Positions 5,001 to 29,681 of a stretch of DNA of 32,888 nt are shown here, one piece after another. The notes under the pieces are model-generated. The model ran no database searches. It had not been told where the DNA came from and worked only from the letters and a program-made list of their open reading frames with translations. Each line of letters opens with the position of its first letter. Positions within the stretch are counted from its first letter, which is position 1. Origin of the DNA: Candidatus Dadabacteria bacterium (lineage in GTDB: Bacteria > Desulfobacterota_D > UBA1144 > Nemesobacterales > JADFKM01); the NCBI GenBank assembly GCA_022564935.1, contig JADFKM010000017.1, forward strand, positions 1-32,888, given 5' to 3'. The position numbers and the translations under genes are program-made.

Positions 5001-6049
5001 AAGAAGTCATACAGAGCCGCATAGAGGGGCTTAGAAAGGAACGTCAGGCCATTCAGGAGAGCTTTAGAGCACGCATAGACGCTTTACGAGAGGAGCTGCG
5101 TATAGCCGAGCAGTTCAAGCGGCTTAACGAGCAGATACGCGATACATTGGAAAGCATCGTATTCAGTGCGGGAGCGCCCCTCACGGCGCCGGAGCAGCTT
5201 GCACGGATACAAGCCGAGCTCGCCAAGGCGAGGGGCATACTCGGCGGCGATACCTCCGATCTGGTGAGGCTTGAGACCATCGATAGGCTCAGAGACTTAT
5301 CGCAGGAAGTTTTCAACCTCGGTACGTCTGCCTTCGGCGCCGGAAGCCCGGAGGCGCTCGCCATATTCGAGCAAGTGACGAAGGAGCTTGAGGAGCTTCT
5401 CAGTATCACGGATATACGGGGCAGGACAGTAGAGGCCATACAGGCCGAAATAGAAAGGCTCAACGTCGAGATGGAGGCGAGTTTAAAGAGCATTGATGCT
5501 CGCATTGCGGGCATGTCGGCACAGCTTACGTCCCTAAGCTCTCAGCAGGTGCAGATATCACAAGGTACACTGGAATTGCTAGAGTTCATACGCAGTGAAG
5601 CCCTGGCAATACTCGCCGAGCGTCTCATGCAGTTAAATCAGATTTCGGGAGAGACATTAACGGTTGATGAGCAAATATTAGGAATAAACGAGCAAATGCT
5701 TATTACTCTCCAAAGTATGGACACGCGTATGGCTCAATCGGGCGGTAATGCCCTTGCGGCACTCATACCCGCACAGCACGGCTTCGAGGGCATCGTGCGG
5801 AGGCCGACCATGTTCCTTACGGGCGAGGGATTCAAGCCGGAGAGGGTGAGTATCAGGCCTGTAGGGAGTGAAGGGAGCGGGGATATTCATTTCAGCTTCG
5901 GAGATATCCATATAAGCGGAGAGGCTGGGTTCCCTCCGGGACGCGGAAGGCAATTAGCGAAGGAATTTGAAGAGGGGCTTATGACGGCTCTGCGCGGAAG
6001 GTTCGGGAAAAAGGTGCAGAAAATCGTACACCAGGGGTTGATGAATTGA
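2060..6049 (+). CDS. Tail tape measure protein
   Basis: The largest protein of the genome (1329 aa). It sets tail length and is ejected with the DNA. The first about 420 residues are coiled-coil-like and Lys/Glu-rich. Residues about 465-620 are Gly/Ala-rich and hydrophobic, with several possible membrane segments. Residues about 960-1230 are again long heptad-rich helices. The C-terminus (GFEGIVRRPTMFLTGE...) resembles tape measure C-termini in which such a segment precedes a Gly-rich end. At roughly 1.5 angstrom per residue a tail near 200 nm is expected. Base use changes from AT-rich to GC-rich near 3.24-3.30 kb, suggesting a recombined N-terminal third. A palindromic repeat at 5927-5946 is translated as GFPPGRG. 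Confidence 0.9.
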   Translation: MATLQNLTLAISFTVTGAKEAVKDIKTVRNEVQKNNDNIDKTVKKTSKLKKTIEGIKIGVNAVDIIIDNSVRRAKELEELSKQSNIPQEDIKRLEKNLKDAKELVEIDKTLKERKQRSRELIPEAFQQITGGALNDAIDKLGESTLRFSAKIKNLQISVEDFGIALLEGLIDIDKSFESSGRSIFNIFNPAVSQEELDVLAAFHGRVEEITSALSENDFARQSALEDSVKLRDLQLELLGKEEQLNAIRKLGGGTPEVIDIFKSEISELEQNITKLKTGINDTVQAAKTFDAQNKESSEGVDKLKQGVEGLNKVVDKASQNITPIDTEGLDNAREKVDNLKESVNGGAGLIVAVKGLNKEIINVDGPAVREAFSSLEDEFLDVQDTVKETASTIPESFEEGLSKAQRLFEDFGRIIGSTLEDTFVSIFEGSFKDIGKMWKDALSNMLSLFHRFVAQILTQKIFVSVGAIFGGAGATAGQGGSGDGLFGGGIPGTGFIGNLLGRLPGAGFVGSGLGTGINIGGTIIPATETVPFATAVGGFTIPLTALAGAAASILGFVSGNIIQGIGGALATGVAFIPGIGPLLSIGTLILTKIIGAIFGLGKKKFVVQIEGTISDIIEGGGLTRAKRASAFEEPLRAAVQQTLSNIFDTLTLFSDRAVENFLSTEIRLRRKTKSGDVGQKLQEFIEGGFLPNLFDQIQESFVIAFEDFGVDQPLAGQFVEGFSDTLRAIEDQFRGTAELGERLSEAFNLFLTQMNLLAITLDLMPERLKHVVVGLTNISDSLEEAALQVASFAALVQLVEPDLFDPITASIQRLKAQAEELGFEGGIPSLTEFTAKINEMIDDIAAQFTELPEEFFIVARELAEGIDEMQKSMKIDPELIQQFVDFRNALIQLRLALVDSISGLVSFINTLNTQIVAGGGAAVDTTGAVNATIDNLMELIASGTLSIEERQQVLQQLAGLANQLAAAEIQAGQAAIQSQKEVIQSRIEGLRKERQAIQESFRARIDALREELRIAEQFKRLNEQIRDTLESIVFSAGAPLTAPEQLARIQAELAKARGILGGDTSDLVRLETIDRLRDLSQEVFNLGTSAFGAGSPEALAIFEQVTKELEELLSITDIRGRTVEAIQAEIERLNVEMEASLKSIDARIAGMSAQLTSLSSQQVQISQGTLELLEFIRSEALAILAERLMQLNQISGETLTVDEQILGINEQMLITLQSMDTRMAQSGGNALAALIPAQHGFEGIVRRPTMFLTGEGFKPERVSIRPVGSEGSGDIHFSFGDIHISGEAGFPPGRGRQLAKEFEEGLMTALRGRFGKKVQKIVHQGLMN
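5927..5946 (+). repeat. Palindromic repeat, in the tape measure gene
   Basis: GGGTTCCCTCCGGGACGCGG, 18 of 20 bases as in the consensus. It is translated in frame near the C-terminus of the tape measure protein. Confidence 0.65.
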
Positions 6050-6273
6050 GCATTGGGCATCCTTTGGGAATAGGTATGGGTATGCCTACGTTTCAGCAGA
6101 TCGGGCGGTGTCCGGCCTGCGAAGGGCCGATTGTTATTCCCGTGCATTTATTGAACGTGATATTGCCGTACATAAGATATGTGTGTAACTGTGGAGCTAA
6201 GTTCGACTTGTGTGAGAATAAAAGCGTTGATACGAAACAAGAAGAGCCGGAAGAACTACTATGGGCGGTATGA
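6046..6273 (+). CDS. Small zinc-ribbon protein
   Basis: A 75-aa protein beginning with TTG at 6046, overlapping the tape measure stop (TTGA). An ATG at 6076 is a less coupled alternative. The pattern CPAC near residues 22-25 and CNCG near 47-50 suggests a treble-clef or zinc-ribbon fold. The C-terminal tail is acidic. It lies between tape measure and distal tail gene, spaced 3 bp from the next gene, so it belongs to the tail operon. Function unknown. Confidence 0.6.
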   Translation: MSIGHPLGIGMGMPTFQQIGRCPACEGPIVIPVHLLNVILPYIRYVCNCGAKFDLCENKSVDTKQEEPEELLWAV

Positions 6274-6276
6274 GCG

Positions 6277-7062
6277 ATGGCTAGATTCGCAAAGACGGCA
6301 AACGCAAGGGTGGCAACGGCGTTCTGGACGTACACGGCGGTAGGCAGCACTGAGGCGGCGGGGAGACCCGCAACGAACATCTCGGAGCTCGGCAGGCCGA
6401 GTAAGTCGTGGCGGAGTACGACCACGGGTGAGCAATCTGTGGTGCTCGACTTCAGCACGGCTCGCAGTGTCCCGTCTGTGTTCCTCGACAACTGCAACTT
6501 CGCAACTGTGAAGATTCAGGGCAACGCCGCGGACGTATGGACTTCGCCTTCGTTTGATTCGGGCAATCTCACGCTAAACAATGACCCGAAGCTGGGAAGG
6601 CGCAAGCGGCTCATCGACCTGACCGCATTTAACCTCCGCTTTATGCGTATCCTCATCTCCTCACAAACCGTCGATGACAACGCGAGCTTCTATGAGATAG
6701 GAGACGTGGCTTCCGTACAGACGATTGCAACACTTACAGAAAACATCGAATACCCCCTGCGGTGGGTGGGACGAGTGCCAAAAATACGCAACGATTTTAT
6801 AAGCGGCGGGTTCGAGACGGTGGAGATTTCCTCGGCCAGGCCGCTCAACATACAGTTCGCCGTGCGGCAAAGCAATGACAGCGCGAACGTGCAGGAGATA
6901 TACGACCTGTTCGGCAATAAGAACCGCAAAATAATACTCGACCTGAGCCTGGTGCAGGACTGGGAAAGCTACCTGTGCGAGGTGGAAAGCGATATTAATA
7001 ATTCATGGGTAAATTCCGGCCTATTCGACTTTAACGAGATCGAGGCGGCGGTGTTTGTGTGA
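6277..7062 (+). CDS. Distal tail-like protein with discoidin-type region
   Basis: A 261-aa protein directly downstream of the tape measure region, where siphophages encode the distal tail protein. Residues about 25-150 have the layout of a discoidin (F5/8 type C) beta sandwich: a stretch after NISELGRPSKSWRS, then VVLDFSTARSV, then FNLRFMRILISS. The C-terminal half may form the ring domain. The assignment rests on position and beta-rich character, not on a specific motif. Confidence 0.55.
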   Translation: MARFAKTANARVATAFWTYTAVGSTEAAGRPATNISELGRPSKSWRSTTTGEQSVVLDFSTARSVPSVFLDNCNFATVKIQGNAADVWTSPSFDSGNLTLNNDPKLGRRKRLIDLTAFNLRFMRILISSQTVDDNASFYEIGDVASVQTIATLTENIEYPLRWVGRVPKIRNDFISGGFETVEISSARPLNIQFAVRQSNDSANVQEIYDLFGNKNRKIILDLSLVQDWESYLCEVESDINNSWVNSGLFDFNEIEAAVFV

Positions 7063-7127
7063 TGAAGGCAAATAGCAGATACGTGGTTAGAATCAAAAGA
7101 ACTGGAAAAAGCGGGAGTGGCACATAG
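7062..7127 (+). CDS. Very short ORF ending in a palindromic repeat
   Basis: A 21-aa ORF (MKANSRYVVRIKRTGKSGSG...) whose ATG overlaps the upstream stop (TGATG), suggesting coupling. Its last residues and TAG stop come from the 65-bp repeat. The small terminase-like gene at 20143-20526 ends on the same repeat residues. It may be the remnant of a gene truncated by arrival of the repeat. No function is visible. Confidence 0.3.
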   Translation: MKANSRYVVRIKRTGKSGSGT

Positions 7128-7169
7128 TGGGGGTTCCCCATCGGGGGACAGAAGGGCTTTTCTGCAAAG
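7105..7169 (+). repeat. 65-bp extended palindromic repeat, copy A
   Basis: 62 of 65 bases match copy C at 27769-27833, and the flanks also match copy B near 20505-20565. The centre forms a hairpin: GTTCCCC (7133-7139), loop ATC, GGGGGAC (7143-7149). This copy lies in a short gap between genes. Confidence 0.85.
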
Positions 7170-7172
7170 TTT

Positions 7173-7301
7173 ATGAAAATTCTCTCGATTCATTTTGACT
7201 ATGAAACCCAAATGCCCGAAACGGTCACGGTTAGGCACCCCGAGGGCATCGGGACAATGACTATTGACATAAAAGATTGCGAGATTATAGAAGAACTCTA
7301 A
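7173..7301 (+). CDS. Small hypothetical protein
   Basis: A 42-aa ORF beginning MKILSIHFDYETQMPETVTV and ending in IIEEL. It has a plausible beta-strand pattern and mixed charge, but only a weak SD (AAAG). It follows the repeat and ends 21 bp before the next gene. Coding is supported by its position in a tight operon and balanced amino-acid composition. Function unknown. Confidence 0.4.
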   Translation: MKILSIHFDYETQMPETVTVRHPEGIGTMTIDIKDCEIIEEL

Positions 7302-7322: not shown

Positions 7323-8093
7323 ATGGGAAGTATGACAGATTTTTTAGAGCTTGAGCTGCTCGACCACGTGCTAAGGAACGAAGCATTTACATCACCTACG
7401 ACCGTATACATCGGATTGTTCACGGCGGCGCCGGGCGAGGCGGGGGGAGGCACGGAGGTGTCGGGCGGCTCATACGCTCGACAAGCCATTGCCTTCGATG
7501 CGGCAGCCTCACGAACGGCAGCGAATACCGCATTGATAACCTTCCCCGTAGCTACGGCAAACTGGGGAACGATCACCGATTGGGCAATATTCGATGCGGT
7601 AACAACGGGGAATATGCTGTGGTATGGGGTTTTCGATACCTCCATTGTCGTCAATATTGACGATGAAGCCGAGATTGCAGCCGGAGATATTGACCTCACG
7701 GCAAGCGCAGCCGGGGCAACAGATTTTCTTGTGCATAAACTCATTGACCACTCCGTCGGTACGGCGAGCTATACCGCACCCACATCAGTTTTTGCAGCTT
7801 TATTCACCACGGCGACGACAGACGCGGGCGGTGGCACGGAAGTAACCGGCGGCTCATACGCTAGAGAAGTCATTGTGTTTGACGTGGCGGCTGCCGGTGC
7901 AACCGATAATAGTGTCAACGATCCCTTTCCTACCGCTACAGCGGACTGGGGTACGATCACACATGCTGCTATTATGAGCCTGGTAACGGGGGGCGATATG
8001 CTTTTCCACGCCGCACTTACTGACTCCCGGACAATCAACAACGGCCAGAACTCCAAATTCAACGCTGGCGACCTAGACATTACGCTAACATAG
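7323..8093 (+). CDS. Tail fibre protein with two tandem homologous domains
   Basis: A 256-aa protein, SD GGAGGG 9 nt before the ATG. It contains the same about 120-residue domain twice (about 5-122 and 135-256). Matching stations are LLDHVLRNEAFTSPTTVYIG with KLIDHSVGTASYTAPTSVFA, AGGGTEVSGGSYAR with AGGGTEVTGGSYAR, NWGTITDWAIFD with DWGTITHAAIMS, and AAGDIDLT with NAGDLDITL. This domain is common in proteins annotated as phage tail fibre, normally as one copy. The tandem form probably arose by duplication. Likely a receptor-contacting or tail-tip protein. Confidence 0.7.
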   Translation: MGSMTDFLELELLDHVLRNEAFTSPTTVYIGLFTAAPGEAGGGTEVSGGSYARQAIAFDAAASRTAANTALITFPVATANWGTITDWAIFDAVTTGNMLWYGVFDTSIVVNIDDEAEIAAGDIDLTASAAGATDFLVHKLIDHSVGTASYTAPTSVFAALFTTATTDAGGGTEVTGGSYAREVIVFDVAAAGATDNSVNDPFPTATADWGTITHAAIMSLVTGGDMLFHAALTDSRTINNGQNSKFNAGDLDITLT

Positions 8094-8105: not shown

Positions 8106-8570
8106 ATGCCAACAGCGTGGATAATAAGTCCAGTAATTGAGACTGTTGCGCCTCTGGGTTCCCCTTCGGGGACGCGAAGGTTTAGAGTTCCAAAAGTAAG
8201 GTTAATAGAAGACCCTGGCAGGCCATTGATAGATGGTGCAAGGTCTCACTATGATTATTCCTCGGTAATCACAGAACAGCAGACAGATACTAATGGAGAC
8301 TGGTGCTTGAGCCTTATTAGAGGTATAGACCTCTCAGTATTAGAATCCGACCCTGATATTACAATTATTCACATAAAGGGTGAGGGACTTAACACAAAGC
8401 TCCAAGACCTTCCGGCTGCAAAGAGAGCAAAGATAAGGGCAGCCGTGCAGTCCAAGCGAGGCAACATTGCAGACCTTAGAGATGACATGCAAATATGGGA
8501 GTGGATTGTGGAGGTTGGAAAATTGATAAAACCTGAGTTCAAAGACACAAGGGGTATGTGGTTTAAGTAA
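8106..8570 (+). CDS. Hypothetical tail-region protein containing a palindromic repeat
   Basis: A 154-aa protein, SD GAGGGAGTG before the ATG. No family recognised. A repeat (8156-8176) is translated near residues 17-24 as PLGSPSGT. The central part (DWCLSLIRGIDLSVLESDPD) and the helical C-terminus look like a folded globular domain. The gene is AT-rich by eye and overlaps the next start as TAATG, so it is translated with the large tail hub gene and may assist its assembly. Confidence 0.6.
   Translation: MPTAWIISPVIETVAPLGSPSGTRRFRVPKVRLIEDPGRPLIDGARSHYDYSSVITEQQTDTNGDWCLSLIRGIDLSVLESDPDITIIHIKGEGLNTKLQDLPAAKRAKIRAAVQSKRGNIADLRDDMQIWEWIVEVGKLIKPEFKDTRGMWFK
8156..8176 (+). repeat. Palindromic repeat, in the 8106 gene
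   Basis: GGGTTCCCCTTCGGGGACGCG with stem TCCCC / GGGGA and loop TTC. It is read in frame without disrupting the ORF. Confidence 0.7.
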
Positions 8571-11500
8571 TGCCTACAGTCAAAGTAGAAGATACATTCA
8601 CAGAAGCAAGCGATATTGTTCTAAGTGCGCATACTCCAAGCCCTACAGGGGATGGCTGGACTAGGGAGGCTATTACTGGAACTGTAGATTTGGAGGTTAG
8701 AGGGGCTTCGGATAATGTGGCTACGGATGCAGATGAAAATGATGATTATGTAGTTTACTCAGTTCAGCCCAATCCAACTGTAGCAGAATATGATGTTGAA
8801 GTTAAGAATGTAAATTTAACAGGGCTAAATAATGACTCTTATCAGCTACTTGCTAGATTTACCGATACGAGTAACACATATGGTTTATCTCTTAGGCATG
8901 TTTTTGGAAGTGGCAACGATGATAATGAAATTTTTAAAATAGTTTCTGGCACAGTAACCTCAATAGCTTCATTAACTGAGGAGAGAATTCCCAATGAGAT
9001 TATAAAATTTGAGGTTAGAGACGCAACAAAGAAGATGTTTGTGGATGGAGTAGAGAAATTAAGTACAACTGACAATGCGATAACATCTGCTGGAAAATGG
9101 GGTGTGGCAGCAGGCAATTTATTCGAGAGCGCTAATAATAAACAAAATTCTTGTGCTTGGGATGATTTTAAATGCACAGAGCAGGGTGCTATTGAACACC
9201 TGCTCGCTATGGTGATAAATGCCGTCACAACCACCACGGGCGCTATCACAGCGGCGGTGCCCCTCGCTGCGGTAATGAACGCAGTCACGACCACAACCGG
9301 GGCGGCAAAGGCGTACCGATTACTCAGGACTGTAATGAACGCCGTCACCACAACGGCTGGTGCAATCTCGCTTGTGGGAATCGCCCTCACTATGGTGATA
9401 AACGCCGTCACGACAACGGCGGGTAAAATCGGCGGCACTTTTACTTTCAAGATGGCAATAAGTGCCGTTACCACTACGGCGGGGAAAATCGGGGGCACCT
9501 TCGTATTCAAAGCTGTCATGAACGCCGTTACCTCCACGACTGGGGTAATCACGGTTGGCTTAATTCTAAAGGCTTTAATGCAAGCCGTTTTTCAAACGAC
9601 GGGAATCCTGACCCCGAAAGCCTTTAATTATAAATGGAGCCTTATAGACACGGATGCGGAGACCACGAGTGACATAAAGAAATTGTACGTGGAGATTGAT
9701 TCAAGTACTATGCCGGGAGCGTTCCCTACCGGAGCATTTTTCGAGCGGCGTATTATGGAGCTTCCCACATTCGAGAAAACTCAAACTGACCCGTTGTTCG
9801 GAATCTCAGGATTCGGCTCGACTTCCCTCGTTGTAAGTAACGCCGATAAGCTCTTCAACGTAGTGGATTTGCAAGGTGCCTTCGCAAAAGTATGGGTCGT
9901 TCACGAAAACGTAACCGAGGAGTTCGCCGGGGTGATAACTGCCAAGAAACTCCATTGGAAAACGGTAATTCAGATTGAGGATATGGAGGCTAAAGTATTC
10001 GAGGGGACTCTACCCCACCGCACGGTGAACGATACAACGTTCCCAAACGCCGAGGGACTGGGCAAGCGCGTGCCTATAATATTCGGCAGGGCTAAGAAAG
10101 TCCCGCTTATCAATATCAACGTGGACGACACGAACCGTGACTACGACTTTCTCATAGGCGAAGGTACGGGACTTTCGAGCGGGAACTTCAACACGGTGTA
10201 TACGGCCTACCGCGAGGACTCCGCTCTCGATGAAATCACGGGTACGGCTCAGACTGGTTCGGCGACCACCATAACCTTAGAGAACGCAGACCGCAGGCCG
10301 GACGGCTGGTACAAGTGGTTCTGGGCGGAGATAACGGGCGGTACGGGAAGTGGGCAGATAAGGCACATTACCGATTACATCAGCAGCACTAATATAGCTA
10401 CGGTGGATTCGGCCTGGGGAACTAACCCCGACGCCACCAGCGTGTACCGCCTGCGCGAGTGGCGGTTCTACGACGGCTCGCAGGGCAGCCCGCACGCCGG
10501 TTACGCCTTCCTGCGTTTTAAGAAACGGCTTGGCGAGCGCACCCGATTCGACAACCTGTTCGCCGACGTTAGGGGACTCACGACTGAGGAAAATGTTGTA
10601 CGGGCGATTGAATCAATATTGACGAACACGACCTGGGGGTTAGGGCTTATCATAGACACCGCTTCGTTCGACACAGCAGCCGCCCTCGCCGCCATAACCG
10701 CTATGAAGTGCGAAGGGGCGATCCTCACTGAAAGCGGCATATTCGACATACTCAACGAGCTGCTCATGTTTAGGGGTATGACACTGAGCCGCAGCACGGA
10801 CATCGGCATAACGGTGGACTCTACTAAAACATCCGCAGTGAACTTCGGTTTGGGCGACGGGCTGTATGAGAACATTATAAGCATAGACGGCCTCGAGGAC
10901 GCACCCCTCACGGAGCTGGCAAAGGACGTAGAGACGCACTTCCAAACGGACTATAAGAGCGGCGATATGAATCAGAAGATAACCCGCACTTCCCATGCCA
11001 AGGGCACGGACGTAATATTGTCCCTGCCGTTCGTGCACATTCATGAAACCGCAGACAGGATAGCCGATTATCAGCGCAAGCGTCTACAGAGCTTCGCTAA
11101 GACACTGCGCATCACCGTCGGCCTGGACGCCGAGCCTGTGAACAAAGGCGACTCGGTTACCGTCGATATACCGAGCCTGGCTATTCAGGGCGATTGGGAA
11201 GTAATAGAGGCGTCACGCGGGCTTGCGAGCTACAGCCTCACGCTCATGGAGTACATAGCCAATACTTATACATACGAGGCTACGGGCGGGCTGCCCTCAG
11301 ACCCCGGCAATATACCCGCCGACTTCTCGCTCACTAACCCCGACCCGGTGAGCAACCTTGCGGCCACAATGGCATTCTCGAACGATGAGTCCACCGCAGC
11401 GCTCACGTGGGACTTGCCCGCAACGAACGCAAAAGAGGGCGTGGTGTTCAAGAAACTCAACTCCGCACCGACAAGCTCATGGGAGGAGGTAGGCGTGGGT

Positions 11501-12721: not shown

Positions 12722-12778
12722 GCGGGGCGGGGACAGTCCGGATTGCCGTTTCAAATCTCCCAAATAAACCCACTATAA

Positions 12779-12813
12779 TACTAATTTATAAAAGATTAGT
12801 ACATAATTAGTAT
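12779..12813. promoter_or_regulatory. Operator block 1 (TACTAAT / ATTAGTA / ATTAGTA)
   Basis: TACTAAT at 12779, ATTAGTA at 12795 and ATTAGTA at 12806, giving offsets of 16 and 27. The same three motifs recur with identical offsets at 12888-12921. A TATAAT at 12774-12779 abuts the block. Likely binding sites for a dimeric regulator. Confidence 0.6.
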
Positions 12814-12841
12814 TTCTAACTGACTGGCATTAATATATATT

Positions 12842-12876: not shown

Positions 12877-12891
12877 AACTTAGTCTATACT
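12864..12891 (+). promoter_or_regulatory. Promoter of the Fic gene
   Basis: TTGATA at 12864-12869, 16-bp spacer, TATACT at 12886-12891. Transcription should begin near 12898, about 49 nt before the ATG. The -35 lies in the inverted repeat and the -10 overlaps operator block 2. Confidence 0.55.
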
Positions 12892-12921
12892 AATATACAT
12901 AATATTAGTATGTAATTAGTA
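12888..12921. promoter_or_regulatory. Operator block 2 (TACTAAT / ATTAGTA / ATTAGTA)
   Basis: TACTAAT at 12888, ATTAGTA at 12904 and ATTAGTA at 12915: the same spacing as block 1, 109 bp downstream. It covers the predicted -10 and transcription start of the Fic promoter. Confidence 0.6.
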
Positions 12922-12946
12922 TTTGCATGCCGGGAGATTAAATGAT

Positions 12947-14278
12947 ATGAAAAAGCCGCTCAAGCCACCTTACGAAACAATCTCAAAAATTATTACGGAG
13001 AATCCCGACCGCTGGCTTGAGATCGTGAATTTCAAGGGAGACTTGAAGGATACAAAATATCTCCACTGGGATCAGATGTATCATATGACCCCTCCCAAGG
13101 GGCTTTCCCGCGAAGAGTGGTGGCTCGCAATTATACACAATCGAGATAACTCCGCAAAAGATCTTCCTATGTGGGATAAGGAGCGGCGGCGGCTTCTTCG
13201 CTGGGTTATGACCAACCCAATCCCTGAGCGTCTTCATCAGATTGACTTCAACGCTGGGAGCGGGGCGGGGCTTCCCTCAGCGGGGCTGAGCGACGAGACG
13301 AGAGACATATACTACGTCAGCTCCCTAATAGAAGAAGCGTTCACATCGAGCCGGCTCGAAGGGGCGTTGACAACGCGCAGGGTGGCAAAGGATCTCATTC
13401 GCACCGGGAGGAAGCCCGCAGACAAAGCCGAACGAATGGTTCTTAACAACTACCTGACGATGAAGGAAATCAGGGATTTTAAGGACGAGCCGCTCACGAA
13501 GGAGCTTGTGTTTAAGATACACTCGCTGATAACCCAAGGCACGCTGGACGACCCCACGGATGCGGGCCGCCTCAGAACCGCCGCAGACGACATCGCCGTC
13601 GTGGACGAAAAGGGACAGTTGCTCCATACACCTCCCGACCCCAACGAGCTACCGGAAAGGATGGAGGCGATGTGCCGCTTCGCCAACGACAAGAGTACTA
13701 AAAAATTCATCCACCCCGTCATCCGCTCCATCATCCTCCACTTCTGGCTTGCGTACGACCACCCCTTCGTTGATGGCAACGGACGGACGGCACGAACCCT
13801 CTTCTACTGGTCGATGCTTCGCCACGGGTACGAGCTTTTCGAATTCATCTCCATCTCCTCGATCATCCTCAAAGGGCCAAGCAAGTACCTCCGCGCGTTC
13901 CTTTACACCGAGAGTGACGAGAACGACCTGACGTATTTCATCCTCTACCACCTGGACGTGATACGCCGCGCCGTCGATGCGCTCAACGAGTACATTCGGC
14001 GCAAAACGCAGGAGCTGCGCGCGCTCGAGCAGAGGCTGCGGGGCCTGGCAGCTCTCAACCACCGCCAGCGCGCCCTCATCAACCACGCGCTCCACCACCC
14101 CGGCGAGCGCTACACGATCTACGGCCACCGCATGAGCCACGACACCGCCTACGAGACGGCACGCTCTGACCTGCTCCACCTGGAGCGCGAGGGGCTTTTC
14201 ACCGCCGAGAAGATCGGCAAACGGTGGTACTACACGCCCGCCGAAAACTTCGAGCGCAGGCTCGGCGCGTCCCCCTAG
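12947..14278 (+). CDS. Fic family enzyme (probable AMP transferase) with C-terminal winged helix
   Basis: I chose ATG 12947, with SD GGGAG 10 nt upstream, over an upstream TTG at 12923; this gives 443 aa. The Fic catalytic motif HPFVDGNGRTAR is complete at residues 272-283 (His272 as general base). The self-inhibitory motif [S/T]xxxE[G/N] is present as SSRLEG at 134-139, N-terminal to the catalytic core, the class II arrangement. The N-terminus (about 1-100) matches the lead-in region of such Fic proteins, and the end (about 380-440) looks like a winged helix. The family transfers AMP, or occasionally another nucleotide group, to a target hydroxyl. Its elaborate operator region suggests tight control. 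Toxin, defence or host-takeover roles are all possible. Confidence 0.85.
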   Translation: MKKPLKPPYETISKIITENPDRWLEIVNFKGDLKDTKYLHWDQMYHMTPPKGLSREEWWLAIIHNRDNSAKDLPMWDKERRRLLRWVMTNPIPERLHQIDFNAGSGAGLPSAGLSDETRDIYYVSSLIEEAFTSSRLEGALTTRRVAKDLIRTGRKPADKAERMVLNNYLTMKEIRDFKDEPLTKELVFKIHSLITQGTLDDPTDAGRLRTAADDIAVVDEKGQLLHTPPDPNELPERMEAMCRFANDKSTKKFIHPVIRSIILHFWLAYDHPFVDGNGRTARTLFYWSMLRHGYELFEFISISSIILKGPSKYLRAFLYTESDENDLTYFILYHLDVIRRAVDALNEYIRRKTQELRALEQRLRGLAALNHRQRALINHALHHPGERYTIYGHRMSHDTAYETARSDLLHLEREGLFTAEKIGKRWYYTPAENFERRLGASP

Positions 14279-14317
14279 GCTCCCCTTTGGGTTCCCTCTG
14301 GGACACGGAGCCCAGCA
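14270..14317 (+). repeat. Double palindromic repeat after the Fic gene
   Basis: Two adjoining hairpin units: one from GCGTCCCCC through GGCTCCCC, then GGGTTCCCTCTGGGACACGG at 14289-14308 (the exact consensus). Bases 14289-14317 match 29621-29649 at 28 of 29 positions. It overlaps the last codons of the Fic gene. Confidence 0.75.
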
Positions 14318-14328: not shown

Positions 14329-14526
14329 ATGCTCAGATTCATTAATAGACTACTTGACGCTGTATATACATTCGTATATAAAGTGATTGGATTACCCATG
14401 AGTTATGTGCTGCTATGCGGCTTGCGAAAAGGAGGTAAATTCAACCATCGCTACGAAGACCAAAAAACCGCGTCCCCGAAGGGGAGCCCAGAGAATACCG
14501 ATCGGCAAGCCCACGGTAAAGCATAA
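14329..14526 (+). CDS. Small hydrophobic protein
   Basis: A 65-aa ORF from ATG 14329, with AAGGG 6 nt upstream. The N-terminal half (about 5-33) is largely hydrophobic with scattered charged residues, suggesting a membrane or amphipathic helix. The C-terminal half is polar and basic. A palindromic repeat in reverse orientation (14471-14490) is translated as SPKGSPEN. It overlaps a basic ORF in another frame (14405-14626). No family recognised. Confidence 0.35.
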   Translation: MLRFINRLLDAVYTFVYKVIGLPMSYVLLCGLRKGGKFNHRYEDQKTASPKGSPENTDRQAHGKA

Positions 14527-15128: not shown

Positions 15129-16226
15129 TTGGATATTGAGCTTATCGCAACGGATGAGTTCTACAAGAGTATCGACCCGAATTCGGGCCTCATAGAAGGT
15201 CTCATGGAGTCCATCTTAAAGAACCGTCAGGTACAGCCCGTCACCATAGCACCGAACCCCCGGGGCCCAGAGCCGTACAGGATAGTAGACGGCAGGAAGC
15301 GGCTGTTCGTACACAAGCAGTTAGCAAAAGACAACAAGAGATTCCGCAACATCCAGGCGCACATCGAGAAGATGTACGAGGACGAGACGCGCCTTGAGCT
15401 TGCGCGCATAGACACGATGCTCTTAAGAGAGGAGCTGCACCCGGTTGCATACGGGAAACTACTTGCGCAAAAAAAGCAAATATACGAAACGCTTTACCCC
15501 GATTCCGCCAAGACAGGCAAAAAAGTTACTGACAAAATGGCGAAGACTTTCATTAAAAGCCATGAGGAGACCACAGGGATGAACGAAAGGACGGCCTACA
15601 GATTTCACAGCGCCGCTACATCCATTCCCGACGACGTGGCGAAGAATGTCATCAAGCTGAACCTGCCGATGTCGGACTGCGAAAAGCTCGCTAAACTGCC
15701 GCCTGTGGTGCAAAAGAAATATGTAAACATCGAGACGGCGCAGGAAATCAGGGAGCAGGTAGATAGGGACATGGCCGAGATCCTCGAGACGCAGAGAGCG
15801 GCGCAGGGCAAATTAAGCGTGGACATGGAGAAGCTCCTCGCAGAGCCTACGAGCGAGGACAGGACGGTGCTCTCCTCAGCCCGGGGCGTCGTGGAGCGCA
15901 TAGCGGTATCGAACCCGAAGTTCATCGAAGAGCGGTGGATGTTCATCGACTGCAGGATAGCCGTCTCTCCCAAGGGCGACCTAGTGCTCGTCAAGTCGCA
16001 CAAATACAGCGACCCTTTGACCGACGGCGAGAGGAAGGCCATGGGCACGATAGACAGGAGACTCCATGAGGGCGATTTCACGTACCACGGCCTGTTCGCC
16101 GTAGCCCAGATTAACGATCAGCCCGACGAGAGGGTCATGGTCAACGAGAACAAGGGCAGGCACGTGAGAAAGGACAAGGTGAGTCTCTGGGGATACGCAA
16201 ACAGCTACTTCGGCTCCATGGAATGA
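15129..16226 (+). CDS. parB: ParB-like partition protein
   Basis: A 365-aa protein starting with TTG 15129, placed 6 nt after a strong SD (GGAGGAG). The N-terminal ParB nuclease-like domain is clear: GLIEGLMESILKNRQVQPV, then YRIVDGRKRLFVH near residues 50-62. A helix-turn-helix region follows (about 135-185, TFIKSHEETTGMNERTAYRF). The C-terminal about 150 residues are of a less common type and may hold dimerisation or centromere recognition. The order parB before parA with ATGA overlap differs from the usual parA-parB order. It would load at a centromere and move with ParA to keep the episome in both daughter cells. Confidence 0.85.
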   Translation: MDIELIATDEFYKSIDPNSGLIEGLMESILKNRQVQPVTIAPNPRGPEPYRIVDGRKRLFVHKQLAKDNKRFRNIQAHIEKMYEDETRLELARIDTMLLREELHPVAYGKLLAQKKQIYETLYPDSAKTGKKVTDKMAKTFIKSHEETTGMNERTAYRFHSAATSIPDDVAKNVIKLNLPMSDCEKLAKLPPVVQKKYVNIETAQEIREQVDRDMAEILETQRAAQGKLSVDMEKLLAEPTSEDRTVLSSARGVVERIAVSNPKFIEERWMFIDCRIAVSPKGDLVLVKSHKYSDPLTDGERKAMGTIDRRLHEGDFTYHGLFAVAQINDQPDERVMVNENKGRHVRKDKVSLWGYANSYFGSME

Positions 16227-16936
16227 GGGTCATATCGGTTGCCAATCAAAAGGGCGGGGTGGGAAAGACCACGCTGTCTTTCCACCTTGGCTGCTATCTC
16301 AACAAGAGAAACAAAACCGTGCTTTTAGTGGACCTCGACTCTCAGGGGAACCTGACGAAGATCACCGGAGTTAAGAGAGCCGACTGCCTCATATATGACG
16401 TTTTCAGCGATTACCCAGTGCTCAAGACCGAGCCGATAAGGGACGGCCTCTCGATATGCACGTCCGACTACCGCTTCTCAAAGCTGATGTTCAACATGAA
16501 GACGGAACATCAAGGAGCCCTCAAAAAGGCCCTTGCCGGCAAGAGCGCCGACTACGCCGTCGTCGACTGCCCCTCGGGGTTAAACTCCATCACGGCCTCG
16601 GCCTACATCGCCTCCGATTTCCTGCTTATACCGACCCTGCCCTCGGACTTAAGCGTGGACGGCATTGAGCAGTTCCTCGAGATAGTCGGCTCGCTCAAGA
16701 CCCTTAAGGTGCTCGGCATCGTAGTGAACAGGTACATAAAAAAAAGGCATTCAAGCAATAGCATCAAGGCGCTACTAGGAGCCGGCTACAAGATAATCAA
16801 GCCCATTATACCGGAGCGCACCGCCGTCGAGGAGGCCGAGAAACACAACCTGCCGATCTGGGACTACGCCCCAGGCACCGACATCGCCGGTATGTACGAG
16901 CTGCTGATGCGCAATATCATTAAGTCCTTGCATTGA
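16223..16936 (+). CDS. parA: ParA-family partition ATPase
   Basis: A 237-aa protein with the deviant Walker A motif KGGVGKTT at residues 10-17, signature lysine included. The A' motif is in LLVDLDSQGNLT (about 35-46), and the Walker B segment is YAVVDCPSG. It lacks the long N-terminal HTH of type Ia ParA, so it resembles the short ParA (type Ib) and cannot itself be the DNA-binding autorepressor. Its start overlaps the parB stop as ATGA. ParA binds the nucleoid with ATP, and ParB triggers hydrolysis. Together the pair argue for stable maintenance as a low-copy plasmid. Confidence 0.92.
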   Translation: MRVISVANQKGGVGKTTLSFHLGCYLNKRNKTVLLVDLDSQGNLTKITGVKRADCLIYDVFSDYPVLKTEPIRDGLSICTSDYRFSKLMFNMKTEHQGALKKALAGKSADYAVVDCPSGLNSITASAYIASDFLLIPTLPSDLSVDGIEQFLEIVGSLKTLKVLGIVVNRYIKKRHSSNSIKALLGAGYKIIKPIIPERTAVEEAEKHNLPIWDYAPGTDIAGMYELLMRNIIKSLH

Positions 16937-19299: not shown

Positions 19300-19373
19300 C
19301 GTATAAAAAAGGGACAGAACGATACACGGCTTCAATGAATAACTCTGTGGTCTTTACAACAACAAAAGAGTGT

Positions 19374-19393
19374 CTTCCCAGAGGGAACCCAGC
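19374..19393 (-). repeat. Palindromic repeat, reverse orientation
   Basis: The minus strand reads GCTGGGTTCCCTCTGGGAAG, close to the consensus. It lies directly upstream of the coding region I prefer for the 19412 gene and would be translated if a GTG at 19370 were the start. Confidence 0.65.
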
Positions 19394-20142: not shown

Positions 20143-20526
20143 ATGGCTAAGCTAACCGTTGTGAAGGTAGAGAAGGCGATAAAAGACTCGGGCGCCGTTA
20201 TAGAGACCATCGCCGAGCGGTGCAGTGCGTCCAGGGAGGCGGTCTTTCATTTTATCGAGGCACGCCCGCGGCTCAAACAGGCCCTTGCGCAGGAGGACGA
20301 GCGCATGACCGACGTTTCGGAAAAGATGCTGATAGAAGCGATCGAAAAAGGGGACTCCTGGGCGGTGAAATTCAGGCTGACCACGAAAGGGAAGAAACGG
20401 GGCTACGGGTCTAAGAGCGAATCCGAGGAGGCCGTGAGGCCGTCGTCGCTGGAGGAGATTGAGAGAGTATGCAGGGAATACGGGCTGCCGATACCGGGCG
20501 CCGCAAAAAGCGGGAGCGGCACATAG
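20143..20526 (+). CDS. Small terminase subunit-like HTH protein
   Basis: A 127-aa protein. The N-terminal half carries a helix-turn-helix (IETIAERCSASREAVFHFIE, about 25-44), followed by helices and AIEKGDSWAVKFRLTTKGKK, a common feature of small terminase and Mu gp27-like proteins. It lies directly before TerL and overlaps it by 58 bp. The last residues (KSGSG...) and the stop codon are supplied by palindromic repeat copy B, so the original C-terminus may have been lost. It would recognise the packaging site and recruit TerL. Confidence 0.7.
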   Translation: MAKLTVVKVEKAIKDSGAVIETIAERCSASREAVFHFIEARPRLKQALAQEDERMTDVSEKMLIEAIEKGDSWAVKFRLTTKGKKRGYGSKSESEEAVRPSSLEEIERVCREYGLPIPGAAKSGSGT

Positions 20527-21989
20527 TGCCTGGGTTCCCTCTGGGACACGGGCTTTTCTATAAAAGCGAGGCCGCAGGAACAGGGGGGCGCATAGAGAGC
20601 CGCTTACAGAAAGCCGCTGCCCCCGGTCTCCCCTCCGCTGGGCTCCCCTCTGGGGACGCGATTTTCCTTCCGTACCAGCGGCGCTGGCTGGGAGACAGTG
20701 CGCCCGTGAAGCTCTGGGAGAAGGCCAGGCGCATAGGCGCCACCTATACTCAGGCCTATGAAGACGTGATGGACTGCGTCCTCGGGCGGGTGCCTGCGGT
20801 GTGGTACACGTCCTCGGACGAGACGGCGGCGAAGGAGTACATGTTGTATTGTTGGGAGTGGGCGCGCCTGCTGAACATTCTTAATTCAAATCCCGTTATC
20901 GGCGACAAGGGGGCGGCGGTGCACTCTATCGAGTTCGGTAACGGGGCGCGCATAGGCGCCCTCAGCTCGAACCCCAAGCAGTTCCGCTCCAAAGGAGGCA
21001 AGGTCATACTCGACGAGTTCGCTCACCATGAACGGGCTGAGGAGCTGTGGGAGGCCGCGAGGCCGTGCGTTACCTGGGGTTATCCGCTGCGGATTCTCAG
21101 CACTCACAACGGAGAGAACAGTATGTTCTACAGGTTCCTCGAAGCCGTCACGAAAGCGCAGCTTAACTGGAGCCGTCACAGGACGGATATACATGATGCC
21201 GTAGGGGAAGGGCTGCTCGATAAAATAAGGCGGCGCCGGACCACGGCCGGGGAAAGACGGGAGTGGCTCGAAGAGCTCCGCGCGGACTGCGTCGATGAAA
21301 GCACGTGGCAGCAGGAATATTGCTGTCAGCCGGTAGATGAGTCGGTAGTGTTTATTTCTTATGAGCTTATACGTTCGGTGGAGATGCCGAGTCTCTATAA
21401 ATCGATAGAGGGGCTTCACAAAAAGGACCTGTTCCTCGGCATGGACGTAGGCAGAAAAAAAGACCTGAGCGTGATCTGGCTTATTGAGCGCCAAGGGGAG
21501 CGGTGCTGCACCCGCGCGGTGCGCGTGATGGAACGAATGCCCTTTGCCGAGCAGAGGGCGATACTGTATGAATATTTATCGCACCCTTCGTTAAGAAGGG
21601 CGTGTATAGACGCCTCGGGCCTGGGCATGCAGCTTGCGGAAGAGGCGAAAAAATTGTATGGTGAATATAAAGTCGAAGCCGTTAATTTCACCGCGCCCCT
21701 AAAAGAGAGCCTAGCCTATGGGCTTAAAAAACGGTTCGAGCAGAGGACGGTTTTTATCCCCGAAGACGTGAAGATACGCGAGGATCTGCACAGCGTCAAA
21801 AAAATCGTAACGGCTGCTGGGAACGTGAGGTTTGACGTAGCGAGCGGCGCAAAGCCGGACGGGAACGCAGACCGCTTCTGGGCGTTGGCCCTGGCGGTTC
21901 ACGCTGCGGCCGAGTTCAAGGCGCCCTTCAGGGTGACGAGCCGGGGACGCGGAGAAGCCGGCGTCATAACGGCAGGTTATTGGAGCTGA
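20469..21989 (+). CDS. Terminase large subunit (Mu gp28-like)
   Basis: 506 aa from ATG 20469, the only start upstream of the repeat-encoded segment; a later start cannot be excluded. After an unusual N-terminus of about 65 residues that includes two palindromic repeats (PGFPLGHG and LPSGDAIF), the family core begins at LPYQRRWLGD. The ATPase has a variant P-loop, KARRIGATYTQA (about 85-96), and Walker B VILDEFAHH (about 179-187). The RNase H-like nuclease begins at FLGMDVGRKKDLSVIW (about 322-337), with later Asp residues in CIDASGLG and GNADRFWALA. It cuts and pumps DNA into the prohead. Mu's transposition-linked packaging cannot apply here, as no transposase is seen. Confidence 0.9.
   Translation: MQGIRAADTGRRKKRERHIVPGFPLGHGLFYKSEAAGTGGRIESRLQKAAAPGLPSAGLPSGDAIFLPYQRRWLGDSAPVKLWEKARRIGATYTQAYEDVMDCVLGRVPAVWYTSSDETAAKEYMLYCWEWARLLNILNSNPVIGDKGAAVHSIEFGNGARIGALSSNPKQFRSKGGKVILDEFAHHERAEELWEAARPCVTWGYPLRILSTHNGENSMFYRFLEAVTKAQLNWSRHRTDIHDAVGEGLLDKIRRRRTTAGERREWLEELRADCVDESTWQQEYCCQPVDESVVFISYELIRSVEMPSLYKSIEGLHKKDLFLGMDVGRKKDLSVIWLIERQGERCCTRAVRVMERMPFAEQRAILYEYLSHPSLRRACIDASGLGMQLAEEAKKLYGEYKVEAVNFTAPLKESLAYGLKKRFEQRTVFIPEDVKIREDLHSVKKIVTAAGNVRFDVASGAKPDGNADRFWALALAVHAAAEFKAPFRVTSRGRGEAGVITAGYWS
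20505..20565 (+). repeat. Extended palindromic repeat, copy B
   Basis: The left 24 bases equal those of copy C, and the right flank GGGCTTTTCTATAAA is shared, but the centre is the consensus GGGTTCCCTCTGGGACACGG (20532-20551) instead of the ATC-loop version. It spans the end of the small terminase-like gene and the beginning of terL. Confidence 0.85.
20641..20660 (+). repeat. Palindromic repeat, second copy in terL
   Basis: GGCTCCCCTCTGGGGACGCG, stem TCCCC / GGGGA, loop TCT. It is translated in frame just before the conserved core of TerL. The preceding bases (CTCCCCTCCGCTGGG) look like another, degraded unit. Confidence 0.65.
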
Positions 21990-22153: not shown

Positions 22154-23434
22154 ATGAGCAAGCAAGGAATAATCCAAAAAGCGCTCCGCATATTCGACAG
22201 GAGCAATCGATACTACGCGGCGCACAATGGGACGTTTGGCAAGCAGATAGCGCAGATCGCCACCAGGGACGTGAGCGCGGCGACCCTTACGCTGCTCTCG
22301 AGCATGACGCTGCCTGACCCCGACCCGATACTAAAGAAGGCGGGCAGGGACATAACGGCGCTCAGAGACCTCATAGCCGACGCGCACCTCTACGCCACTG
22401 TGCAGAGCAGGAAGGCGGGCGTGCTCTCGCTGGAATGGGAGATCGCCCGCAGCGGCGCCGCGTCCCCAGAGGGGGAATCTGAAGGAGAAGCCCGGAGGGA
22501 TCAAGGAAGAGTGGAAGTGATCGAGGGCATGTTCAAGCGGTACGACATGGGCGCGGTTATCGGCGAAATATTGAACGCGCCGCTCTATGGCTTCCAGCCT
22601 CTGGAGGTGTTGTGGGAGACCGACGCAAACGGCCTCCGTCTCCCGGTGCGCGTGATCGGGAAGCCCCCGGAGTGGTTCACCTTCGACAGTGAGAACCTAA
22701 TGCTGTTCAAGACCAAGCGCAACCCCGAGGGCGAGCCGCTGCCCCCGTTCTCTTTCCTCGTGGCCGCGCACGACGCCTCGTACGACAACCCGTTCGGCGA
22801 GAAGGTGCTGTCGCGCTGCTTCTGGCCCGTCACGTTTAAGAGGGGCGGTATAAAGTTCTGGGCGCGGTTCGCGGAGAAATTCGGGATGCCGTTTATAGTG
22901 GGAAAGCACCCCGCCGCCGCAAGCCAGGAGGAGATAGACAGGATGCTGGATATGATGGAGAAGATGGTCCAGGACGCCGTGGCCGCCATCCCTGAGGGGA
23001 GCGACATAGACACGCTGGAGACGAGCACGAGGGGCTCTTCCACCTCCACGTACGAGAAGTTCCTCGGCGCCATGAACTCCGAGATATCGAAGGCCGTTCT
23101 GGGACAAACCCTCACCACGGAGGTGGGGGACAGGGGGAGCCTCGCGGCCGGGCGCGTCCACATGGACGTGAGGCGCGATATTATAGACGGTGACCGCAGG
23201 ATAGTAGAGGGCGTTTTCAACACGCTCATAAAGTGGGTATGGACAATCAACTTCAGCAATGACCTGCGGGCAATGCCAAGGTTCAGGATGTTCGAGAGGG
23301 AGCGGGTCGATAAGACGCAGGCCGAGCGCGACGAGATACTCTCCAGAGCGGGTGTTGCTTTCACGGACGAGTACTGGAAGAAGACCTACGGCCTCGGAGA
23401 TGGGGATATTGCCCCCCGCGTCGCAAGGGGATAG
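22154..23434 (+). CDS. Portal protein (DUF935, Mu gp29-like)
   Basis: A 426-aa protein with SD GGAGAG before the ATG. The family is recognised from the N-terminal region (AATLTLLSSMTLPDPDPILK, then LYATVQSRKAGVLSLEWEI), YDMGAVIGEILNAPLYGFQP, and GIKFWARFAEKFGMPFIVGK, then GQTLTTEVGDRGSLAAGRVH. It is somewhat shorter than typical gp29 (about 500 aa). It forms the 12-subunit ring through which DNA enters and to which the tail connects. A reverse palindromic repeat is translated as SPEGESEG (about 108-115), where it probably sits in a surface loop. Confidence 0.92.
   Translation: MSKQGIIQKALRIFDRSNRYYAAHNGTFGKQIAQIATRDVSAATLTLLSSMTLPDPDPILKKAGRDITALRDLIADAHLYATVQSRKAGVLSLEWEIARSGAASPEGESEGEARRDQGRVEVIEGMFKRYDMGAVIGEILNAPLYGFQPLEVLWETDANGLRLPVRVIGKPPEWFTFDSENLMLFKTKRNPEGEPLPPFSFLVAAHDASYDNPFGEKVLSRCFWPVTFKRGGIKFWARFAEKFGMPFIVGKHPAAASQEEIDRMLDMMEKMVQDAVAAIPEGSDIDTLETSTRGSSTSTYEKFLGAMNSEISKAVLGQTLTTEVGDRGSLAAGRVHMDVRRDIIDGDRRIVEGVFNTLIKWVWTINFSNDLRAMPRFRMFERERVDKTQAERDEILSRAGVAFTDEYWKKTYGLGDGDIAPRVARG
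22466..22486 (-). repeat. Palindromic repeat, in the portal gene
   Basis: The minus strand reads GATTCCCCCTCTGGGGACGCG. It is translated in frame in the portal protein without interrupting the conserved segments on either side. Confidence 0.65.
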
Positions 23435-27610: not shown

Positions 27611-27625
27611 GGGGATCACTAAAAC

Positions 27626-27856
27626 ATGAAACTCAAGATGCTCTCAAGCGTTAAGCACGACGGCGAGTATTACGAATACGGCGTGGAGTACGAGCTTGAC
27701 CCGAAGACGGGGAAGATGTTCATAGAGAAGGGATGGGCGGAGAAGCTCATTCCCGATACGAAGAGAAAGAAAAAGCGGGAGCGGCACATAGTGGGGGTTC
27801 CCCATCGGGGGACAGAAGGGCTTTTCTATAAAGAGAGCCGGGACGCAGGTGACTGA
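27626..27856 (+). CDS. Small gp35-like protein with repeat-encoded C-terminus
   Basis: A 76-aa protein. The first about 45 residues (MKLKMLSSVKHDGEYYEYGV, then GWAEKLIP) resemble the small beta-barrel head proteins that follow major capsid genes in Mu-like phages. The last about 25 residues (KRERHIVGVPHRGTEGLFYK...) come from repeat copy C, so the gene was probably extended by insertion of the element. The stop overlaps the next start as TGATG. Confidence 0.7.
   Translation: MKLKMLSSVKHDGEYYEYGVEYELDPKTGKMFIEKGWAEKLIPDTKRKKKRERHIVGVPHRGTEGLFYKESRDAGD
27769..27833 (+). repeat. 65-bp extended palindromic repeat, copy C
   Basis: 62 of 65 bases match copy A at 7105-7169. It is read in frame as the C-terminus of the 27626 gene. 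The central hairpin is GTTCCCC, ATC, GGGGGAC. Confidence 0.9.
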
Positions 27857-28293: not shown

Positions 28294-28784
28294 ACAACAG
28301 GTTTCTAAGGGTAGTCGAATACGTGCTGAAGCACGAGGGGGGTTACGTCAATGACCCGGACGACCCCGGAGGGGAAACGAAGTTCGGCATAAGCAAGAGG
28401 AGTTTCCCTATTTTAGATATAAAGAGCCTCACGAGAAACCAGGCGGTTGCGATTTATTGGGGCGATTATTGGAAGCCGGAATACGACAAGATTAATAGCG
28501 AGGCGATTGCGACAAAGGTGTTCGACCTGGCGGTGAATACCGGACATAGAACGGCGCACCAAAGGTTGCAAGAGGCGGTCAATATAAGCATGAGTGAAAC
28601 GAAGTTGACAATGGACGGTATTATCGGCCCGGTAACGCTTTCGTGCCTCAATAGGACGAGGCCGATGCAAGTGATGACATGGTTCCTCGTAGCGATGGAG
28701 AAATACTACCGGAGCCTCAATAAGCCAAAGTTCCTCGACGGCTGGCTCAATAGGCTGTATGACATGGAGGTTAAATTAGCATGA
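28290..28784 (+). CDS. Endolysin (GH108 with peptidoglycan-binding domain)
   Basis: A 164-aa protein. The N-terminal motif EYVLKHEGGYVNDPDDPGGE, then TKFGIS, is typical of the GH108 lysozyme-like family, with Glu16 in HEGGY as the expected catalytic residue. The second half (VFDLAVNTGHRTAHQRLQEA, then LTMDGIIGPVTLSCLN) is the PG_binding_3 domain. No signal peptide is seen, so release depends on a holin. The family cleaves the glycan strand of peptidoglycan in Gram-negative hosts. Confidence 0.92.
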   Translation: MNNRFLRVVEYVLKHEGGYVNDPDDPGGETKFGISKRSFPILDIKSLTRNQAVAIYWGDYWKPEYDKINSEAIATKVFDLAVNTGHRTAHQRLQEAVNISMSETKLTMDGIIGPVTLSCLNRTRPMQVMTWFLVAMEKYYRSLNKPKFLDGWLNRLYDMEVKLA

Positions 28785-28999
28785 AATCAGGATACAAAAC
28801 AACGGAATTTTGGGTGACAATAGGGCTTCAAATCGTGGGTGTCGTTATGATTGCCATGTGCCCAACCTGTGATTCCAGTGCCGGAACTTGCACTGAGGGC
28901 GTGCCTATATTGTGCAGGGTGTTGGGCTTTGCTATCATGGCCGCGTCTGCTCTAGGATATTCGGTGAGCAGAGGAATGGCTAAAAAAGGGGCTAATTAA
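28781..28999 (+). CDS. Holin candidate with two membrane helices
   Basis: A 72-aa protein with two hydrophobic segments (about 9-27, FWVTIGLQIVGVVMIAMC, and about 44-62, ILCRVLGFAIMAASALGY) linked by a polar, Cys-containing loop. The tail is short and basic. Size, topology and ATGA overlap with the endolysin gene make a class II holin likely, though similar small membrane proteins occur in lysis cassettes without holin function. Confidence 0.7.
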   Translation: MKSGYKTTEFWVTIGLQIVGVVMIAMCPTCDSSAGTCTEGVPILCRVLGFAIMAASALGYSVSRGMAKKGAN

Positions 29000-29322
29000 T
29001 GAACAGAAATAACGTCTCGATATTTTTAATACTTGCGTTGCTTTTTATAGTGGGCTGTGGAATTAAGCAGACGACTAAGGCGGGGCTTTACATCTCGAAA
29101 ACCACGCATGATGTTGTAAAGACGCAAGTGGTCGAGCGCATGGAAACGCTTGCCTCGCGGGAGCCGACACCGGAAGCTGTTGCGGAGATGAGGAAGCTGC
29201 GAGAGATGGCCCGTGTACTGGATACATACAGCGCTGCCCACAACATGATGGTCGAAGCGGCAAGGAGCATATCCGTCTTGACGGCCGAGCTTGGGATCAA
29301 GACAGGCGGAGGGGATCGATGA
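28999..29322 (+). CDS. Lipoprotein, spanin candidate
   Basis: A 107-aa protein with a signal peptide and lipobox (ILALLFIVGC, Cys about 20). The mature part is a charged helix (KTQVVERMETLASREPTPEA, then VAEMRKLREMARVLDT). Outer-membrane lipoproteins in lysis cassettes are usually o-spanins or unimolecular spanins. There is no second C-terminal membrane segment, so it would need an inner-membrane partner, perhaps the 29678 protein. Confidence 0.65.
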   Translation: MNRNNVSIFLILALLFIVGCGIKQTTKAGLYISKTTHDVVKTQVVERMETLASREPTPEAVAEMRKLREMARVLDTYSAAHNMMVEAARSISVLTAELGIKTGGGDR

Positions 29323-29555
29323 TACAGCTGCTTCCCATTATACTGGCTGTCATAGGCGAGCTGATAAAGACCTCGCCGGAAATAATCGAGGCGTTTGGGA
29401 GCGGCGAGATAGACGAGCGGGAGTTTGAGGAGCTTATGACACAGCCAATCTCTGAAGCTCTGGAATCTAGGGGACTTACCCCGGACAACCTCGACGCGTG
29501 GGAGCGGGGCGAAATGAGGTACAACCCGGATACCGGAGCGATGGAGGAAATATGA
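29319..29555 (+). CDS. Small lysis-cassette protein of unknown function
   Basis: A 78-aa protein overlapping the previous stop as ATGA. The N-terminal 16 residues (MIQLLPIILAVIGELI) form a short hydrophobic helix, and the rest is acidic (pattern IDEREFEELMTQPISEALES). A membrane-associated regulator of lysis (antiholin-like) is possible. No family recognised. Confidence 0.5.
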   Translation: MIQLLPIILAVIGELIKTSPEIIEAFGSGEIDEREFEELMTQPISEALESRGLTPDNLDAWERGEMRYNPDTGAMEEI

Positions 29556-29570
29556 CGGGTGGCGGCGCCG

Positions 29571-29681
29571 ATGAAGAACCTAAAACGGCGGCTTAAACCG
29601 TTAAAAGAGCGCGTCCCTCTGGGTTCCCTCTGGGACACGGAGCCTAGCACGGGTGAGCCCGGCAGGAGCTCGGGTAAATGA
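29571..29681 (+). CDS. Short ORF containing a palindromic repeat
   Basis: A 36-aa ORF that overlaps the next start as ATGA. It is basic at the N-terminus (MKNLKRRLKPLKERV), with the repeat translated as VPLGSLWDTEPS. The region before 14329 gives the same translation in its open frame. An upstream ATG at 29552 opens only 14 codons. It may be a decayed gene or a coupling leader for the 29678 gene. Confidence 0.3.
   Translation: MKNLKRRLKPLKERVPLGSLWDTEPSTGEPGRSSGK
29621..29649 (+). repeat. Palindromic repeat in the lysis region
   Basis: The exact consensus GGGTTCCCTCTGGGACACGG (29621-29640) plus AGCCTAGCA; 28 of 29 bases as at 14289-14317. An extra GTCCCTCT precedes it. Confidence 0.8.

Follow-up and report, generated by a model that had tools for sequence, protein, structure and literature searches.

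How a family of short palindromic repeats came to be scattered along a compact phage genome is the question raised by contig JADFKM010000017.1 of Candidatus Dadabacteria bacterium (assembly GCA_022564935.1). The whole stretch of 32,888 nt was analyzed and is called the window here. An earlier note, made from the sequence alone, had described the repeats as hairpins dispersed inside genes and had proposed a non-autonomous element mobilized by the host. The explanation that we favor, with some but not great confidence, is a non-autonomous palindrome that resembles repetitive extragenic palindromic (REP) sequences and Rickettsia palindromic elements (RPEs) and was amplified inside one phage-plasmid-like genome.

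The repeat family in the window is real. With up to three mismatches, GGGTTCCCTCTGGGACACGG occurs four times in the window and not once in 100 shuffles, and most of the remaining copies fall into groups in a de novo repeat search (families D4, D6, D7, and D8; inverted pairs I1-I3 and I6), which confirms the family at the positions first listed. One entry near 14270 is not convincing as a separate copy; it is the degenerate inverted partner of the copy at 14287-14305, and the Fic stop codon (14276-14278) falls within it. When written in the orientation of the tag, all 11 copies share one layout: YGTC, an optional TT, two to five C, a 3-base loop (GGA, GAT, GAA, or AGA), three to five G, and AR (AA or AG). 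A CCCA tail, usually read as CCCAG, is present in 8 of the 11. The layout pattern matches exactly 11 places in the 33-kb window versus 0.02 expected from 200 first-order Markov shuffles; it was derived from the copies themselves, and the GGGTTCCCTCTGGGACACGG shuffle test and the de novo search serve as the independent tests. Both orientations are used, as previously claimed, with the tag on the minus strand in eight copies and on the plus strand in three.

The loop of three bases had been recognized correctly, and the stems consist of three to five G-C pairs. The two arms lengthen together (CC/GGG, CCC/GGGG, CCCC/GGGG), which indicates that the palindromic core is maintained, although its flanks are asymmetric. 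In most copies the last C of the YGTC tag is able to pair, and the tag is therefore not strictly unpaired, and TT/AA pairs extend the stem at 19371 only. One clear double copy is found (29606-29637), two are degenerate (14264 and 19371), and the others are single. Exceptional folding stability was not found, as the energies of most copies are no better than those of shuffles. Intrinsic terminators were rejected as an identity for the repeats: there is no U-tract, only the 14471 copy matched, on the minus strand, and the counts are at the shuffle level. Known RNA families were also rejected, the only match being a sub-threshold one to a clustered regularly interspaced short palindromic repeat (CRISPR) at 27622.

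Three copies are embedded in a longer unit of about 65 nt. The units at 7105-7169 and 27769-27833 are 95% identical, non-palindromic flanks included, and the unit at 20504 shares their left part (AAAAAGCGGGAGCGGCACATAGTG) and right part (GGGCTTTTCTATAAA), which here flank another hairpin of the family. The left part specifies KSGSGT followed by a stop codon both in the small open reading frame (ORF) 7062-7127 and in TerS, and it is read in another frame, as KKRERHIV, in the 27626 gene. The use of several reading frames had thus been observed correctly. Since the gene frame in which this DNA lies differs between 7105, 20504, and 27769, protein conservation cannot explain the unit and was rejected as its cause; the unit is DNA that was copied. 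A non-mobile origin is one way to account for this, in which linkers at gene ends underwent local duplication and gene conversion with one another and were kept as recombination boundaries between modules. The identity of the 7105 and 27769 units across their flanks and the position of all three units at gene ends fit such an origin. However, what the other eight copies have in common is limited to about 20-35 nt, the hairpin with its tag and tail; this suggests that the hairpin is the spreading unit, and we hold linker duplication to be very unlikely.

Placement relative to genes was evaluated with a fixed gene list, drawn by hand from ORFs and therefore somewhat subjective. By this list, 6 of the 11 copies lie in spacers, which account for 15% of the genome, and nine are no farther than 60 nt from a gene end, compared to 21% of positions (P = 3e-5). 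When the list was restricted to the better-supported genes, those with homology, a single copy, in the portal gene, was deeper than 120 nt inside a gene, versus 58% of positions (P = 0.001). The copies avoid gene interiors and are biased toward gene edges, and the earlier statement that most of them lie in protein-coding sequence is correct only in part. Open frames across copies do occur, as was pointed out; none of the six frames of the GC-rich consensus contains a stop codon, so open frames are expected and are no proof of translation.

Gene junctions are also where cis-acting RNA hairpins would be selected in a polycistronic late mRNA, with roles in processing, translational coupling, or stability. 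The proximity of nine copies to gene ends and the co-varying stem arms suit this function, and the long unit at the TerS-TerL junction carries TAGTG, an overlap of stop and start codons. However, the repeats occur in both orientations, with one copy deep in the portal gene. Folding energies are mostly at the shuffle level, a terminator tail is lacking save for the one minus-strand match, and equivalents are absent from related phages (12 loci). We therefore regard selected RNA hairpins as unlikely.

Comparison with orthologues lacking the element, as the earlier note recommended, was informative at the portal. Between a conserved R and the following helix, the window protein has 21 residues (SGAASPEGESEGEARRDQGRV) and the related loci L005 and L006 have eight; the segment is also shorter in AFS-2018a, KP12, Komp_PAO1_1, Lsp-JY19, and B3. 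The repeat is part of this surplus of 12-13 residues (approximately 36-39 nt), which leaves the reading frame intact. As these residues are absent from close relatives, an insertion at this copy is supported. At the terminase genes, both copies that had been assigned to TerL lie at the TerS-TerL junction. Homology to TerL begins at residue 58-66 of the 506-aa ORF, essentially downstream of copies 7 and 8. The distance between the TerS stop and the FLPYQ codons of TerL is 138 nt in the window and about 15 nt in L005, 18 nt in L006, 44 nt in Lsp-JY19, and 51 nt in B3. By this measure, the junction is enlarged in the window, and copies 7 and 8 occupy the extra stretch. In the small gene 27626, the phrog_2616 match spans residues 1-50 only and the long unit starts at about residue 48.

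Table 1. Repeat copies and long units in the window.
Feature	Position	Strand	Sequence or composition	Location
Copy 1	5925..5943	-	CGTCCCGGAGGGAACCCAG on minus strand	In frame near tape measure C-terminus, 112 nt from gene end
Long unit, first of three	7105..7169	+	65 nt: A-run, GCGGGAGTGGCACATAGTG, hairpin, GGGCTTTTCTGCAAAG	
Copy 2	7128..7150	-	TGTCCCCCGATGGGGAACCCCCA	Spacer between small-ORF stop TAG and next small ORF
Copy 3	8154..8174	-	CGTCCCCGAAGGGGAACCCAG	Codons ~17-23 of 154-aa gene at 8106
Copy 4	14264..14305	.	Tagged copy 14287-14305 (-) with degenerate partner on left	
Copy 5	14471..14491	+	CGTCCCCGAAGGGGAGCCCAG	Near end of small ORF 14329-14526
Copy 6	19371..19392	+	TGTCTTCCCAGAGGGAACCCAG; TTCCC/GGGAA stem	5' edge of gene 19370/19414-19705
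Long unit, second	20504..20570	+		TerS-TerL junction; TerS ends inside unit
Copy 7	20530..20548	-	TGTCCCAGAGGGAACCCAG	Between TerS stop and TerL core
Copy 8	20638..20658	-	CGTCCCCAGAGGGGAGCCCAG	Directly before conserved TerL start (FLPYQ codon at 20664)
Copy 9	22461..22482	+	CGTCCCCAGAGGGGGAATCTGA	Inside Mu-type portal gene
Long unit, third	27769..27833	+		Extends C-terminus of small gene 27626-27853; other frame than 7105 unit
Copy 10	27792..27814	-	TGTCCCCCGATGGGGAACCCCCA	
Copy 11	29606..29637	.	Compact double copy CGTCCCTCTGGGTTCCCTCTGGGACA, tags outward; tagged copy 29619-29637 (-)	Spacer or small ORF before gene 29678

The genome that carries these copies is a circular contig, as its first 127 bases are identical to its last 127 (1-127 and 32762-32888), and it belongs to a bin of 104 contigs (1.99 Mb, 89% complete), in which it is contig C97. 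It encodes a Mu-type portal (PF06074), a terminase related to enzymes of transposable phages such as B3, a Fic protein, and a ParA together with a ParB-like protein (15129-16936). No integrase or transposase was noticed in the window. Circularity, the ParA and ParB-like genes, and the lack of a noticed integrase suggest a phage-plasmid-like life style, combined with head genes of the Mu/B3 type. A HicA/HicB toxin-antitoxin pair (PF07927 and PF05534; 24136-24743) is embedded among the virion genes.

In a replicon of this kind, the repeats may instead be dispersed binding sites of a phage-encoded protein, most likely ParB-like centromere sites as in the plasmid-prophage N15. Dispersed centromere-like sites have been reported in N15, RK2, pSM19035, and pMF1, some of them inside ORFs (PMC3235114). 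The window resembles N15 and pMF1 in that short repeats are scattered over a ParAB-bearing replicon, a likeness of arrangement. The circular contig with its ParA and ParB-like genes and no noticed integrase agrees with this function, and placement at gene edges suits sites chosen to spare genes. However, the halves are asymmetric outside the core, and the half-site spacing varies with stem length, which is unusual for a dimer site. The extra DNA, namely the 65-nt unit and the enlarged portal loop, exceeds the point mutation needed to make a site. No copy adjoins parAB (the nearest is about 640 nt away), and other repeats lie upstream of the Fic gene. Centromere sites are consequently considered quite improbable. 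The repeats upstream of Fic are two AT-rich 38-nt sequences (12778-12815 and 12887-12924) that are 84% identical and contain the palindromes ATACTAAT and ATTAGTAT; they are a possible operator, origin, or centromere.

Searches beyond the window covered the bin, related phages, and databases. The layout pattern has no copies in 12 loci of relative phages. No core patterns were found in 56 genomes of the phylum, except for two single short matches at the chance level, and neither 85,000 species genomes nor IMG/VR contain the exact core. A looser pattern gave seven single matches in the 85,000 genomes, with a chance estimate of about 7.5 and no second copy beside them in the stretches examined; a single isolated hit in IMG/VR came from another pattern. 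Among 266 kb of further contigs from the bin there is one copy (L015:5815-5839), on contig C30, which was taken into that sample because of this match. It sits between two chromosomal genes, shortly past the end of an ORF that stops at 5857. This copy is the only sign of a repeat common to phage and host. It could be a chance match, and binning could have joined unrelated contigs. Whole-genome pattern searches thus yielded one convincing copy in the bin and its 56 relatives, and a host-wide family picked up by the phage was rejected. The proposed mobilization by the host likewise finds no backing: the bin has this one copy, and a Y1 tyrosine transposase of the RAYT type (PF01797) was not found in it at 89% completeness. 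No GTAG tag stands at the stem, and with no Y1 found in the bin the repeats do not qualify as GTAG-type REPs mobilized by RAYT.

For an amplified REP/RPE-like palindrome, the element would measure about 20 bp and comprise the YGTC tag, a C/G stem, a purine-rich 3-base loop, AR, and the CCCA tail. New copies would arise by hairpin insertion or duplication, sometimes with flanking DNA as in the 65-nt unit, and selection would spare those located between genes, near the ends of genes, or in a protein loop that tolerates them. The hairpin itself may drive copying through template switching in replication, recombination between copies, or a trans-acting enzyme. Recombination between copies is conceivable, and the long unit shows that flanks can travel along. 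We further consider it possible, although doubtful, that the repeat lives mainly in the phage, moves about inside phage genomes and perhaps from one to another, and is passed from there to host chromosomes, its insertion being tolerated by essential virion genes.

Several observations weigh against amplification of a mobile palindrome. The family is confined to one genome and one chromosomal copy, and no transposase for it was found in a search that covered Y1 only. The portal surplus lies partly outside the 22-nt repeat, and the more distant KS10 portal aligns differently and has a partly filled loop, so the loop length varies. Orthologues with the same residues had been named in advance as a sign of ancestral sequence. 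None was seen at the portal, and a partial case exists at 20641, where TerL of phage B3 reads DAIFLPYQ and that of the window GDAIFLPYQ; the last codons at the edge of the 20638-20658 copy, which encode the DA residues, may be ancestral. Only the portal and the TerL junction had orthologues good enough for an insertion test, since no homologues were found for this purpose for the tape measure and gene 8106. No target-site duplication was found; the relatives are too distant (approximately 40-50% protein identity) for exact empty sites to be defined.

Further repeated sequences were noticed elsewhere in the window. Two short genes before the tape measure (472-584 and 1099-1211) have a similar N-terminus (113 nt, 78% identical), which the start of the tape measure (2060) loosely resembles. 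Five direct repeats at 9203-9483, spaced 60-63 nt apart inside a 1251-aa tail protein, encode units of about 20 residues of the type NAVTTTTGAI. One gene at 7323-8093 has two tandem Gp80 fibre domains (PF23140), which share a stretch of 92 nt at 75% identity.

To our knowledge, the movement between genomes of repeats with a CGTC tag (RPE-4, RPE-6, dRS3, and others) is unexplained, and no dedicated transposase is known for them. A limited search of the open-access literature found no report of such a repeat family amplified in a phage. If it is true that the repeat multiplied in a compact phage genome, this would suggest phages as carriers of repeats similar to the CGTC-tagged ones. The phage genome would also provide a small system for measuring where copies insert, how they vary, and what they do to virion genes.

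Among the closest known systems are palindromes of bacterial chromosomes. RPEs of R. conorii end in CGTC, and RPE-4 and RPE-6 belong to the CGTC-tagged superfamily, in which the tag is often TGTC (Di Nocera et al. 2013, PMC3733652). Every member carries a tail of three bases, in most cases CCA, some are intragenic, and none has an associated transposase; the stem of 8-9 bp begins with two A/T pairs, the loop has 4-5 bases, and inverted dimers predominate (PMC3733652). The window copies are similar in the YGTC beside the stem (11 of 11), the CCCA tail (8 of 11), sites at gene edges with some inside genes, and the lack of a dedicated transposase; a few inverted double copies also occur in the window. 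The layout was already known when the tag and tail likeness was recognized, and this likeness involves about seven short positions. In contrast, the window stems have 3-5 bp, the loop has three bases, most copies are single, and the family comprises eleven copies in a phage, whereas the CGTC-tagged repeats are chromosomal and numerous. The repeat may work like a member of the superfamily; its stem is too short for membership to be regarded as proven. The suggested resemblance to RPEs is upheld more fully than anticipated by the tag, the tail, and the supported portal insertion. Both are short tagged palindromes found in several frames and, here at the portal only, in frame in a conserved gene; unlike RPEs, the window copies reside in a phage and mostly at gene edges, and the two were likened by description.

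Copy 6 comes closest of all copies to the CGTC-tagged layout. Its TTCCC...GGGAA core recalls dRS3 of Neisseria, ATTCCC(N8)GGGAAT (PMC3898611), which has been assigned to CGTC-1 (PMC3733652); the window differs in its 3-nt spacer and in its copy number of eleven, compared to hundreds for dRS3. Yeast mitochondrial GC clusters are palindromes that proliferate, merge, and shuffle within one small genome (PMC4478555). They differ from the window repeats in their 42-nt unit, their organelle genome, and the population evidence of their mobility, but in both cases GC-rich palindromes appear to multiply in one small genome.

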